This document shows positions 7,277-34,350 of a DNA stretch of 64,000 nucleotides, piece after piece (position 1 is the stretch's first letter; each line of letters starts with the position of its first letter). A program made the translations under genes and the position numbers. This DNA comes from Halorientalis litorea (lineage in GTDB: Archaea; Halobacteriota; Halobacteria; Halobacteriales; Haloarculaceae), in the NCBI RefSeq assembly GCF_023028225.1, contig NZ_CP095482.1, positions 1,550,001 to 1,614,000 of the forward strand. Direction: 5' to 3'. A model generated the notes under the pieces. It did no database searches. It was not told the DNA's origin and saw only the letters and a program-made list of their open reading frames with translations.

Positions 7277-10200
7277 ATGAGCAGGTTCGAACCGGTCGAC
7301 GACCAGTACGACCCTCACGACGTGGAGGACGGGGTGTTCGACTACTGGGACGCTGTCGATGCCTACGAGCAGACGGTCGATCACCGGGCGGACGGGGAGA
7401 CGTACTTCTTCGTGGACGGCCCGCCGTACACCTCCGGGGCGGCCCACATGGGGACGACGTGGAACAAGACGGTCAAGGACGCCTACATCCGCTATCTCCG
7501 CATGCAGGGCTACGACGTGACCGACCGCCCGGGCTACGACATGCACGGGTTGCCCATCGAGACGAAGGTGGAGGAACGACTGGGCTTCGAGAACAAGAAG
7601 GACATCGAGGAGTTCGGCGAACAGCAGTTCATCGAAGAGTGCAAGGACTTCGCCGAGGAGCAACTAGCGGGCCTGCAGGAGGACTTCAAGTCCTTCGGCG
7701 TCTGGATGGACTGGGACGACCCCTACAAGACGGTCGAACCCGAGTACATGGAGGCCGCGTGGTGGGGCTTCGCGCAGGCCGACGACCGCGGACTGGTCGA
7801 GCAGGGCAAACGCTCCATCAACCAGTGCCCCCGGTGTGAGACGGCCATCGCCAACAACGAAGTCGAGTATCATCAGGTCGGCAAGCCCTCTATCTACGTG
7901 AAGTTCCCGCTCGCAGAGCGGGAGGGGAGTCTGGTCATCTGGACGACGACGCCGTGGACCATCGTCGCCAACACGTTCGTCGCCGTCGACGCCGAGTTGG
8001 AGTACGTCGCCGTCGACGCCGAGAAACGCGCGGACTCGTCCGCGAACCGGAGCGGCGAATCCGTCGAGGACGGCGAGACGGAGCGATTGTACGTCGCCGC
8101 CGACTGCATCGAGGACGTGTTGAAGGCCGGCCGCTACGAGGACTACGAGGAAGTCGAGCGACTTGACGGCGAGGAGATGGTCGGCTGGGAGTACGACCAC
8201 CCGCTCGCCGAACAGGTCCCCGACCACGCACAGGCCGACGACAGTCTGCAAGTCTACACCGCAGACTACGTGGAGGCGGACCGCACCGGACTGGTCCACT
8301 CCGCGCCGGGCCACGGTGAGGAGGACTTCGCACGCGGGCAGGAACTCGGACTGGAGGTGTTCTGTCCGGTCGGGAACGATGGCGTCTACACCGAGGCGGC
8401 CGGCGACTACGCCGGCACGTTCGTCCGGGACGCGAACGACGAGGTCATCGCCGACCTCGATTCGGCGGGTCACCTGCTCGCCAGCGAGGAGGGCCACTCG
8501 GTCCGTGAGGGGCAGTGTTGGCGGTGTGACACCGACATCGTGCGCCTCGTGACCGACCAGTGGTTCATCACGGTCACCGACATCAAGGACGAACTGCTCG
8601 ACAACATCGAGGACAGCGAGTGGTACCCACAGGAGGCACGCGACAACCGCTTCCGGGACTTCGTCGAGGATTCACCGGACTGGAACGTCTCGCGCCAGCG
8701 GTACTGGGGGATTCCAATCCCGATTTGGACGCCCGAGGACTGGAGCGGGGACATGGACGAGGCCATCGTCGTCGGCACGCGCGAGGAACTGGCGGAACTG
8801 GCCGACCAGGACATCGACCCCGAGACGGTGGACCTGCACAAGGGGACGGTAGACGAGGTGACCGTCACCCGGGACGGCACCACCTACACGCGCGTGCCCG
8901 ACGTGTTCGACGTGTGGCTCGACTCCTCGGTGGCGACGTGGGGCACCCTCGACTACCCCGAGACCGAGGACGCCTTCGAGGAACTGTGGCCCGCCGACCT
9001 CATCATCGAGGCCCACGACCAGACACGCGGGTGGTTCTGGTCGCAACTCGGCATGGGCACCGCCGCGCTGGGCGAGGTGCCCTACGAGCAAGTCGTGATG
9101 CACGGCCACGCGCTGGACGAGGACGGCCGGAAGATGTCGAAGTCGCTGGGTAACATCGTCGAACCCGGCGAGGCAATCGACCGGCACGGCCGGGACCCGA
9201 TGCGGCTGTTCCTGCTCTCGTTCACCGCACAGGCGGACGACATGAAGTTCTCGTGGGACGAGATGGCCGAGATGCAACGCCGGCTGAACATCCTCTGGAA
9301 CGTGTTCCGGTTCCCCCTGCCGTACATGCGGATGGACGGCTTCGACCCCGAGGCCGTCGACCTGCAGGACGCCGAGACCGAACTGGTCGACGAGTGGGTG
9401 CTCTCCCGGCTCCAAGACGTGGAAAAGCGGATGACCGAGCACATGGAGAACTTCGAGCAGGACAAGGCACTGGACGAACTGCTCGGGTTCGTCGTGGAGG
9501 ACGTGTCCCGCTTCTACGTGCAGGTGGTCCGCGAGCGCGTGTGGGAGGAGGGCGACACCGACTCGAAGACCGCCGCCTACGCCACGCTCTACCGCATCCT
9601 CGAAGAGACGGTTACGCTTCTGGCACCCTTCGCACCCTTCGCCGCCGAGGAAATCTACGGGACGCTCACCGGCGACGCGGGGTACGAGACGGTCCACATG
9701 TGTGACTGGCCCGAGGCCGACGACTTTTGGCACGACCCGCAACTGGAGGCGGCGGTCGAAGTCGCCCGTGCCGTCGAGGAAGCGGGCTCGAACGCCCGCC
9801 AGCAGGCCGAACGGAGCCTCCGCTGGCCGGTCCAGCGCGTCGTGGTCGCCGTCGACGACGAGGACACCGCCGCCGCCGTCCGGAGCCAGCGTGACCTGCT
9901 CGAAGACCGGCTGAACGCTCGCGACATCGAACTCGTCGGTCCCGGCGACCGCTGGGGTGAACTCCGGTACTCGGCCGAGGCCGACATGAGCGTCCTCGGC
10001 CCCGAGTTCGGCGACGACGCCGGGCGCGTGATGAACGCGCTGAACGAGGCGAGCGTCGCCGACCCGACCCTCGACGCCCTCGAAGCCGCCGTCGCCGAAC
10101 GGCTGGGCGAGGACGTGGCCCTGACCGAGGAGATGGTCGAGTTCGTCACCGAGACGCCCGACGGCGTGACCGGCGTTTCGTTCGACCTCGACGGCGAGAC

Positions 10201-10519
10201 GGGCGGCGTCGTCTACGTCGACGCCTCGCTCACCGAGGACATCGAGAGCGAGGGGTACGCCCGCGAGGTCATCCGCCGCGTCCAGGAGATGCGCAAGGAC
10301 CTCGACTTGGACCTCGACGCCACCATCCGCGTCGAGTACACCGTGGACGACGACCGGGTGGCTGACCTCGTGGCCGACCACGAGGCTCTCATCGCCGAGG
10401 AGGTTCGGGCCGAGGAGTTCGGTGCCGTCGAGGACGGACACCGCCGCGAGTGGGAGGTCGACGACCTGACGATGGACATCGCCATCGAACCGTCGAGCGC
10501 GCCCGAAGCGTCTGACTGA
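7277..10519 (+). CDS. ileS: Isoleucyl-tRNA synthetase
   Basis: Class Ia synthetase of 1080 aa charging tRNA-Ile. The HIGH motif is HMGT at residues 57-60 after GPPYTSGAA, and KMSKS is at 619-623. A long editing (CP1) domain lies between them. The C-terminal part contains the anticodon-binding helical domain and an acidic tail. ATG 7277 has a CATTTAG box around 7247-7253, about 27 nt upstream, consistent with a leaderless mRNA. The last 35 bp of the gene, including the stop, are duplicated 169 bp downstream, so the 3' end has been rearranged recently. Confidence 0.97.
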   Translation: MSRFEPVDDQYDPHDVEDGVFDYWDAVDAYEQTVDHRADGETYFFVDGPPYTSGAAHMGTTWNKTVKDAYIRYLRMQGYDVTDRPGYDMHGLPIETKVEERLGFENKKDIEEFGEQQFIEECKDFAEEQLAGLQEDFKSFGVWMDWDDPYKTVEPEYMEAAWWGFAQADDRGLVEQGKRSINQCPRCETAIANNEVEYHQVGKPSIYVKFPLAEREGSLVIWTTTPWTIVANTFVAVDAELEYVAVDAEKRADSSANRSGESVEDGETERLYVAADCIEDVLKAGRYEDYEEVERLDGEEMVGWEYDHPLAEQVPDHAQADDSLQVYTADYVEADRTGLVHSAPGHGEEDFARGQELGLEVFCPVGNDGVYTEAAGDYAGTFVRDANDEVIADLDSAGHLLASEEGHSVREGQCWRCDTDIVRLVTDQWFITVTDIKDELLDNIEDSEWYPQEARDNRFRDFVEDSPDWNVSRQRYWGIPIPIWTPEDWSGDMDEAIVVGTREELAELADQDIDPETVDLHKGTVDEVTVTRDGTTYTRVPDVFDVWLDSSVATWGTLDYPETEDAFEELWPADLIIEAHDQTRGWFWSQLGMGTAALGEVPYEQVVMHGHALDEDGRKMSKSLGNIVEPGEAIDRHGRDPMRLFLLSFTAQADDMKFSWDEMAEMQRRLNILWNVFRFPLPYMRMDGFDPEAVDLQDAETELVDEWVLSRLQDVEKRMTEHMENFEQDKALDELLGFVVEDVSRFYVQVVRERVWEEGDTDSKTAAYATLYRILEETVTLLAPFAPFAAEEIYGTLTGDAGYETVHMCDWPEADDFWHDPQLEAAVEVARAVEEAGSNARQQAERSLRWPVQRVVVAVDDEDTAAAVRSQRDLLEDRLNARDIELVGPGDRWGELRYSAEADMSVLGPEFGDDAGRVMNALNEASVADPTLDALEAAVAERLGEDVALTEEMVEFVTETPDGVTGVSFDLDGETGGVVYVDASLTEDIESEGYAREVIRRVQEMRKDLDLDLDATIRVEYTVDDDRVADLVADHEALIAEEVRAEEFGAVEDGHRREWEVDDLTMDIAIEPSSAPEASD
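10485..10519 (+). repeat. 35-bp direct repeat, copy 1 (ileS 3' end)
   Basis: The final 35 bp of ileS, including its TGA, recur without mismatch at 10654-10688. The spacer between the copies is 134 bp and consists mostly of dispersed repeat copy A. Confidence 0.95.
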
Positions 10520-10541
10520 GACGGCGCGCGCCGTGGTCGCG

Positions 10542-10647
10542 GCACAAGCACGGCACCCGGACGCGAGCCAGCGGCTCGCGTCCGGCCTTTTTCGCCCACG
10601 TTTTTGCGCGAGTGGTGCGCGGAGCGCGGCCGAGCGGAAAAAGGTGG
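10542..10647 (+). repeat. Dispersed hairpin repeat, copy A
   Basis: About 106 bp, similar to copies at 27784-27888 (same strand) and 34245-34350 (opposite strand). It contains a strong stem (CGGACGCGAGC facing GCTCGCGTCCG), a block with TTTTTC and GTTTTTG runs, a second short palindrome around GTGCGC/GCGCGG, and the end GGAAAAAGGTGG. T-runs occur on both strands, so it could stop transcription from either side. It lies between two copies of the ileS 3' end. Confidence 0.85.
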
Positions 10648-10653
10648 TTGCCG

Positions 10654-10688
10654 TCGAACCGTCGAGCGCGCCCGAAGCGTCTGACTGA
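10654..10688 (+). repeat. 35-bp direct repeat, copy 2 (duplicated ileS 3' end)
   Basis: Exact copy of 10485-10519, out of context here: no open frame leads into it. It sits 5 bp before the stop codon of the convergent membrane gene. Two neighbouring copies of one sequence flanking copy A look like an insertion or replication-slippage scar. Confidence 0.95.
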
Positions 10689-10693
10689 CTCCC

Positions 10694-11110
10694 TCAGTCG
10701 CTTCCGAACCCGAGGTCCGGTAGCGAGAGCGGCGCGCGCCGGTAGACGACGTAGTAGGCCACCGGGTAGCCGAGGACCACGGCTGCCGGGCGCAGTGCCG
10801 CCTGCGTCACGCCCCCCGAGTCGAGGAGGGAGAGGAAGAGACCGAACACTAGCGCGACCACGATTTGCGTCGCCGCGACGACGAGGACGAAATCCACGAG
10901 GCGGTCCGCCGAGTACCCTCGCGTCCGGAAGCCACGCGTCGCCGTCGCCGCGAGCGCGAGGGTGCCGCCGCCGATGACGGCGAAGACGAGCGGCGTGGGC
11001 GACGCCACCGCGAGCGCGAACACGACCGCTGGTTGCCCGACCAGCAGACAGAACAGAACGAACGTGACGGGCGCGTCGCCGCTGTCAGCGCGCTCGGGTT
11101 CGGCGGCCAT
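10694..11110 (-). CDS. Four-helix membrane protein, unknown
   Basis: 138 aa with four predicted membrane segments (about residues 13-33, 39-57, 72-95 and 103-123). The cytosolic head is short and acidic and the tail reads RRAPLSLPDLGFGSD. There are no catalytic motifs. ATG 11110 is the first start in the frame. It is convergent with ileS across the duplicated repeat region. A haloarchaeal conserved protein is likely, but I do not recognise the family. Confidence 0.7.
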   Translation of the reverse strand: MAAEPERADSGDAPVTFVLFCLLVGQPAVVFALAVASPTPLVFAVIGGGTLALAATATRGFRTRGYSADRLVDFVLVVAATQIVVALVFGLFLSLLDSGGVTQAALRPAAVVLGYPVAYYVVYRRAPLSLPDLGFGSD

Positions 11111-27783: not shown

Positions 27784-27888
27784 GAGCACAGCATCCGCTC
27801 GCTCACGGTGTGAGCGAGCGGCAGTTTTTCGCCCACGTTCTTGCGCGAGTGGTTCGCGCGGAGCGCGAACCCGAGCGGAAAAAGGTGG
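27784..27888 (+). repeat. Dispersed hairpin repeat, copy B
   Basis: Matches copies A and C in its TTTTTCGCCCACGTTCTTG block and its GGAAAAAGGTGG end. Its outer stem uses a different sequence: CCGCTCGCTCA facing TGAGCGAGCGG. The GGTGG end touches the stop codon of the large Fe-S oxidoreductase gene with no gap. Confidence 0.85.
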
Positions 27889-34244: not shown

Positions 34245-34350
34245 CCATCTTTTTCCCGCTCGGGTGCGCTGCGCGCACCACTCGCGGCAAAAACATGGGT
34301 GAAAAAGGCCGGACGCGAGCCGCTGGCTCGCGTCCGAGTGCTGTGCTCGT
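34245..34350 (-). repeat. Dispersed hairpin repeat, copy C
   Basis: On the opposite strand to copies A and B. It shares with copy A the stem CGGACGCGAGC/GCTCGCGTCCG and the TTTTTC...GTTTTT block (here with two base changes), and ends in GGGAAAAAGATGG. That end abuts the tRNA-derived scar. The stretch from here to 34486 holds no gene: 34351-34450 is low-complexity sequence without coding bias. Confidence 0.85.

Follow-up and report, generated by a model that had tools for sequence, protein, structure and literature searches.

Duplicated gene tails beside a short palindromic repeat of haloarchaea, with a probable case of target duplication at the ileS gene of Halorientalis litorea

The isoleucyl-tRNA synthetase gene (ileS) of Halorientalis litorea ends in a stretch of 35 bp that recurs on the far side of a short palindromic repeat, termed R here. 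This repetition is probably a duplication of the gene tail, i.e. of the target, that arose when R arrived at the ileS 3′ end, and one of a series of such events in haloarchaea. The same structure is found at many other copies of R, it is biased to the side on which R lies in sense orientation behind a gene, and the second tail copy joins R at its conserved GGTGG end.

Results

In the window, i.e. the whole 64-kb stretch of DNA analysed, ileS is an open reading frame (ORF) of 1080 codons for amino acids on the forward strand (7277–10519; Pfam PF00133, PF08264 and PF19302). The tail copy within the gene, T (10481–10519, stop codon TGA included), and the second copy, T′ (10650–10688, same strand), form a duplication of 39 bp with one A/G mismatch, of which 35 bp are exact (10485–10519 and 10654–10688). 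The original prediction that the end of ileS recurs exactly over 35 bp together with its stop codon is hence borne out, and its coordinates, 10485–10688, are correct. The 35-mer is present twice in the 64-kb window, and no exact direct repeat spaced by up to 400 bp is longer; the only other exact direct repeat of at least 20 bp within 400 bp is a self-overlapping run of 27 bp (38065/38074).

Both tail copies are separated by R (10520–10647, forward strand), the left limit of which was set to the first base after the stop codon and the right limit to the conserved GGTGG, with TT as the only bases between this motif and T′. R has a left part that is variable, then a hairpin (10557–10585) with a 13-bp stem free of mismatches, and a conserved core (10588–10647, TTTTTCGCCCACG...AAAAAGGTGG), delimited by an nhmmer profile and an alignment of 30 copies, that forms a long imperfect hairpin. 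No empty site was seen for this copy of R at ileS. The profile finds two more cores in the window, neither with a duplication of its flanks: one (27825–27888, forward strand, locus L004) adjoins with its GGTGG end the stop codon of an opposite-strand ORF, and the other (34249–34306, reverse strand, locus L002) is located 3′ of a tRNA-Ser gene. Between this tRNA-Ser gene and R, at about 34.1–34.25 kb of the window (about 1354–1505 of L002), a further small palindrome seems to be flanked by copies of the tRNA gene’s 3′ end, and L064 appears alike.

R is dispersed in the 3.21-Mb home genome of the window (G000), where a 221-bp query around R gave 19 match rows, its own copy and partial pieces included, and the same query gave further matches in the relatives. 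Searching with the core profile yielded 171 matches in 196 sequences, from which same-sequence repeats, copies close to a locus end and those caught by a reverse-strand filter were removed. The resulting 143 distinct copies are a non-random sample, taken from 80 ileS loci (the best 80 of 218), loci found with the 221-bp query and 80 hand-picked stretches among the matches listed. Conservation of the core is strong, with 30 columns invariant in an alignment of 30 copies, and in the left hairpin and the inner loop of the core the sequence varies while the folding is kept. A consensus fold of 30 copies contains 10 pairs without any two-sided covariation, since the variable stems fail to align, and the hairpins were thus tested copy by copy: the 34 nt preceding the core reach a mean of −18.5 kcal/mol versus −10.3 for shuffled sequences (118 copies, 97 distinct stems), and the inner loop a mean of −12.7 versus −5.4 (83 copies where the loop could be excised). 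Copies of R have ragged left ends, and some long ones carry GCATCC on that side. At the gathering score of Rfam 15, five R loci gave no match, and the copy in the window gave merely sub-threshold, chance-like matches to that database. The idea that the core is coding sequence was dropped on inspection, the loop lengths being unequal between copies.

The original prediction had proposed to look for duplicated gene 3′ ends at other copies of R, and such duplications were found: 50 of the 143 copies have a direct duplication shared by both flanks (score of at least 18). The duplicated flank is nearly always the upstream gene’s own tail, 22–286 bp in length, and the 50 cases are spread over 40 loci. 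Sorted by eye, these loci represent about 19 host genes, including ileS and putative hisH, etfA, argF and nuoI (all names other than ileS are readings of translations). At a score of at least 24, a duplication is found at 49 of 143 R copies as compared to 3 of 623 R-free gene ends (those with R close by were masked out) and to 23 of 3000 random sites; for R copies, which are partly non-independent, against R-free gene ends, Fisher’s test gives P ~1e-35. The order along the DNA is gene-T-R-T′-downstream, with T′ at the GGTGG side of R in 49 of the 50 cases. Related species also carry gene-tail duplications beside R, each with the host gene’s own ending. For ileS itself, 80 usable loci (window included) comprise 15 in which R lies in sense orientation no more than 300 nt from the stop codon, and in 10 of these 15 the tail copy scores at least 32, a count that overlooked the 245-bp tail copy of L050; in L036 only a short tail remnant is seen by eye. 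The sole case of a duplication on the other side is L122 (1280–1520; home genome, about 37.6 kb of contig C1), where R lies antisense behind a tRNA-Arg(CCT) gene, the 3′ 22 bp of which recur past the left end of R with one mismatch.

An insert between direct repeats of gene 3′ ends, once even of a tRNA-Arg gene, is also what an integrase-type element would leave if it had entered gene 3′ ends and been lost afterwards. A single integrase would, however, need a single attachment sequence, and the range of hosts contradicts this: one short hairpin element is present at about 19 genes that, like their tails, are unrelated to one another. We thus consider such an attachment-site remnant very improbable.

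Besides the 50 copies with a duplication, there are 45 of 143 whose GGTGG end, measured from the end of the profile, lies within 10 nt of the stop codon of an opposite-strand gene, gene ends being called throughout by a rule of length and acidity rather than from curated annotation. The two groups do not overlap, and 48 of 143 copies belong to neither; at least four of these (L003, L024, L128 and L162) border on an opposite-strand tRNA gene at its 3′ end. In sense orientation the order is stop codon, hairpin and TTTTT, and in antisense the stop codon is followed by CCACCTTTTT, so that a hairpin and a T-run come soon after the stop in either direction. With this arrangement, R resembles a bidirectional terminator element. 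Among the R copies of loci L001–L195, the stop codon is TAA in 28 of 45 opposite-strand genes adjoining GGTGG and TAG in 21 of 39 genes with a tail duplication; the background of stops in the ileS loci is TGA 301, TAA 176 and TAG 168. The stop codon may thus be provided by R’s own ends.

Which of the two tail copies is the older one can be read from comparison with relatives. In G006, 3 bp separate the T′ stop of ileS from the prs stop, the same gap as between ileS and prs in the R-free G001. The DHH-type gene of the home genome is cut short beside R, ending in ...AADEE*, and its last T′ continues for 14 codons further before a stop; a longer acidic end, e.g. ...EGVETE, is present in six of seven relatives, with G004 as the exception. 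The diphthine-ligase-like gene of G005 ends in DAWLAQASGE* beside R versus DAWLE* in T′. Its relatives G002 and G003 end in DAWLE*, and in G001, G004 and G006 the stop is in the same position and the last residue or two differ, while G007 is longer; hence, five of the six other relatives end where T′ of G005 ends, without the extension. Furthermore, of 39 pairs compared, 37 have a T′ stop that is in register with T; the triplets differ in nine, seven of which are stop-for-stop exchanges. In other genes, the left edge of R has even altered the last codons or the stop. The gap to prs, the C-termini of relatives and the in-register stops show that in three gene families T′ was formerly the working end of the gene and that T plus R was inserted ahead of it as the newcomer. 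At ileS of the window, the stop of T′ lies just 5 bp from that of a convergent ORF (10694–11110, reverse strand, 138 aa, from the ORF list, no Pfam match); from this and from the relatives we infer that T′ is the old end there as well. The stop codon of nuoI was dropped as a marker of the old end, since R-free relatives disagree in it (TAA in G004 and G007, TAG in G003 and G000).

The original prediction had left open whether the event was a target duplication or strand slippage. The first part agrees with T′ being the old end, whereas slippage as the primary event is not supported. According to the latter scheme, a polymerase stalls at the hairpin of R, which indeed adjoins the junction, slips back and copies T plus R twice, and the second R is then lost; (T R)n tandems whose units are identical, e.g. 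in L059 and L089, would agree with this. However, slippage would place R after T′ too, and neither R nor a remnant of it is present there at most loci. T′ instead runs on into the old downstream DNA (G006 ileS compared to R-free G001) and preserves old C-termini, and the arrays are equally explained by recombination between T and T′. For loci with a single R we thus reject slippage as the primary event; it could still apply to L064, L194 and L213, where T′ enters a partial R, and as an overall explanation it appears improbable.

Arrays of the form (T R)n T′ are common among R loci. The junction between GGTGG and T′ is alike across species for etfA (G001, G003 and G007), argF (G003, G004 and G006), hisH (G003 and G005) and ileS (Natrialbaceae loci, and L045, L050 and L089), while T′ itself mostly tracks the tail of its own species, as seen for nuoI (G001, G005 and G006) and hisH (G004 and G005) when the tails of four genes were compared among relatives on both strands, some distances coming out too large where the stretch compared is longer than T′. 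There are exceptions in G003: T′ of argF has its closest matches not in its own T but in the G004 and G006 tail copies, and T and T′ of etfA agree in their coding parts and differ after the stop; both look like exchange. The arrays, together with junctions shared by species whose tails are species-specific, point to recombination between T and T′ after insertion, and would be explained if such homologous exchange also took place among strains. The shared junctions may reflect plain inheritance accompanied by gene conversion instead of transfer, and gene conversion is described as efficient in polyploid Haloferax volcanii (PMC8223754). The identity of the two copies had been ascribed to a recent event or to upkeep by recombination. 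Recombination fits the other loci, since R/T′ junctions are common to species while T′ follows the species’ own tail; the copy in the window fits recency and conversion alike.

A duplication without the repeat in close relatives, named by the original prediction as evidence against it, was not seen in eight genomes of the genus. In L107, from a distant Haloferacaceae MAG, 29 bp of the ileS tail are repeated without R, in a different unit, and a shorter tail copy lies inside the gap between the repeats. The hisH tail array of G003 appears to be split by an insertion, with identical R cores on two contigs (L032 and L158); this pair was considered as proof of movement and dropped, as both look like halves of the split array. 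A by-eye enrichment of in-frame fusions of T′ to the GTG at the right end of R vanished after orthologous junctions had been grouped.

Discussion

How does R arrive? Our tentative model, to which we give rather less than an even chance, is that R is a mobile haloarchaeal 3′-end element with a reactive GGTGG end, which would join the tail of its host gene on another copy of the chromosome, and that the resulting cassette would then spread by homologous recombination within the tail. Haloarchaea are polyploid. In the reading preferred here, R would come to lie downstream of a gene, oriented in sense, and would be linked through GGTGG to a point about 20–290 bp before the end of a plain-tailed copy of that gene. 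T′ would stay joined to the old downstream sequence, and T plus R would be the new part. Recombination between T and T′ could subsequently generate (T R)n T′ arrays and keep the two copies alike, and it could also bring the tail-R-tail cassette to other strains. A candidate trigger would be a break at the base of the core hairpin, the broken end then being joined to a copy of the gene that lacks R.

The main rival of breakage and joining is transposition, in which a transposase or reverse transcription deposits R close to stop codons, cutting the target with a stagger of varying width that is filled in as target duplication. This, too, gives the order T-R-T′ with an ancestral junction between T′ and the downstream DNA, and it would agree with nearly identical R cores at different genes within one genome (L031 and L137 also share the same left hairpin), as well as with the opposite orientation of R at the L122 duplication. 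Target-primed reverse transcription yields target duplications of variable length and would suit an exact GGTGG end combined with a ragged left one. However, the duplications are found at one and the same side of R in 49 of 50 cases, and for the 45 opposite-strand gene tails at GGTGG no copy is found past the left end of R (searched up to 1.2 kb; best score 15.5). Lengths of 22–286 bp match no DNA transposase known to us. Since 49 of the 50 duplications have T′ on the side of GGTGG, a single reactive end is indicated rather than a symmetric transposase, and breakage with joining to an R-free gene copy is thus favoured, while transposition is to be regarded as rather unlikely. The breakage model does not account for everything: the preference of R for sites at stop codons goes beyond what breakage alone explains, and the duplication on the other side at the tRNA-Arg 3′ end of L122 does not fit a one-ended model.

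Short palindromic repeats are frequent in prokaryotes, and to our knowledge their spread is mostly unexplained. Bacterial REP elements are intergenic palindromic repeats close to gene ends and often clustered; R is similar in being intergenic, palindromic and near gene ends, and we know of no gene-tail duplication at REP elements. R departs from familiar target duplications by the variable length of the duplicated stretch and its location on one side in 49 of 50 cases. Among the kinds described in the literature searched, the SMRs and PATEs come closest. SMRs of Haloquadratum walsbyi are short (SMR-A about 110 bp), non-coding, dispersed and endowed with inverted repeats, and their mode of movement is termed enigmatic there (PMC3119063). 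R shares these four properties, yet it differs from the SMRs described, which are reported to lack target duplications and to have palindromes of PATEs and IS605-type elements as targets (PMC3119063), by the gene-tail duplications at 50 of 143 copies and by its neighbours, which, as far as the partial annotation tells, are protein or tRNA genes instead of such palindromes. PATEs are palindrome-associated transposable elements related to IS605-type transposons, again described without target duplications (PMC3119063); R resembles them in being haloarchaeal, free of a transposase and palindromic near its ends, and it is unlike them in its flank duplications at 50 of 143 copies and in its layout. 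Haloarchaeal MITEs are likewise short and transposase-free, with frequent target duplications according to the same paper (PMC3119063), the length of which is set by the transposase, in contrast to the gene tails of 22–286 bp at R. A gene-tail duplication of R’s kind was not found described in the literature searched, which covered few subscription journals.

If true, the proposed mechanism would be a route of spread not known before in prokaryotes, by which a gene retains its tail and gains a putative terminator and by which the tail-R-tail cassette passes among strains and species. Every arrival of R would leave a record, since the old gene end remains beside the new one, and the site of insertions, their order and later conversion could be read from the sequence. 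R would also be a route to rewriting C-termini and stop codons. For annotation, short tail copies behind R-type repeats are best regarded as remnants and not as genes.

Other arrangements were seen at ileS 3′ ends as well. L046 has two tail copies inside an R-like T-rich unit instead of after it. In L049, L052, L055 and L058, a different short palindromic insert lies seemingly within the tail; it seems to provide a new C-terminus and stop codon, with the older tail remaining behind it.
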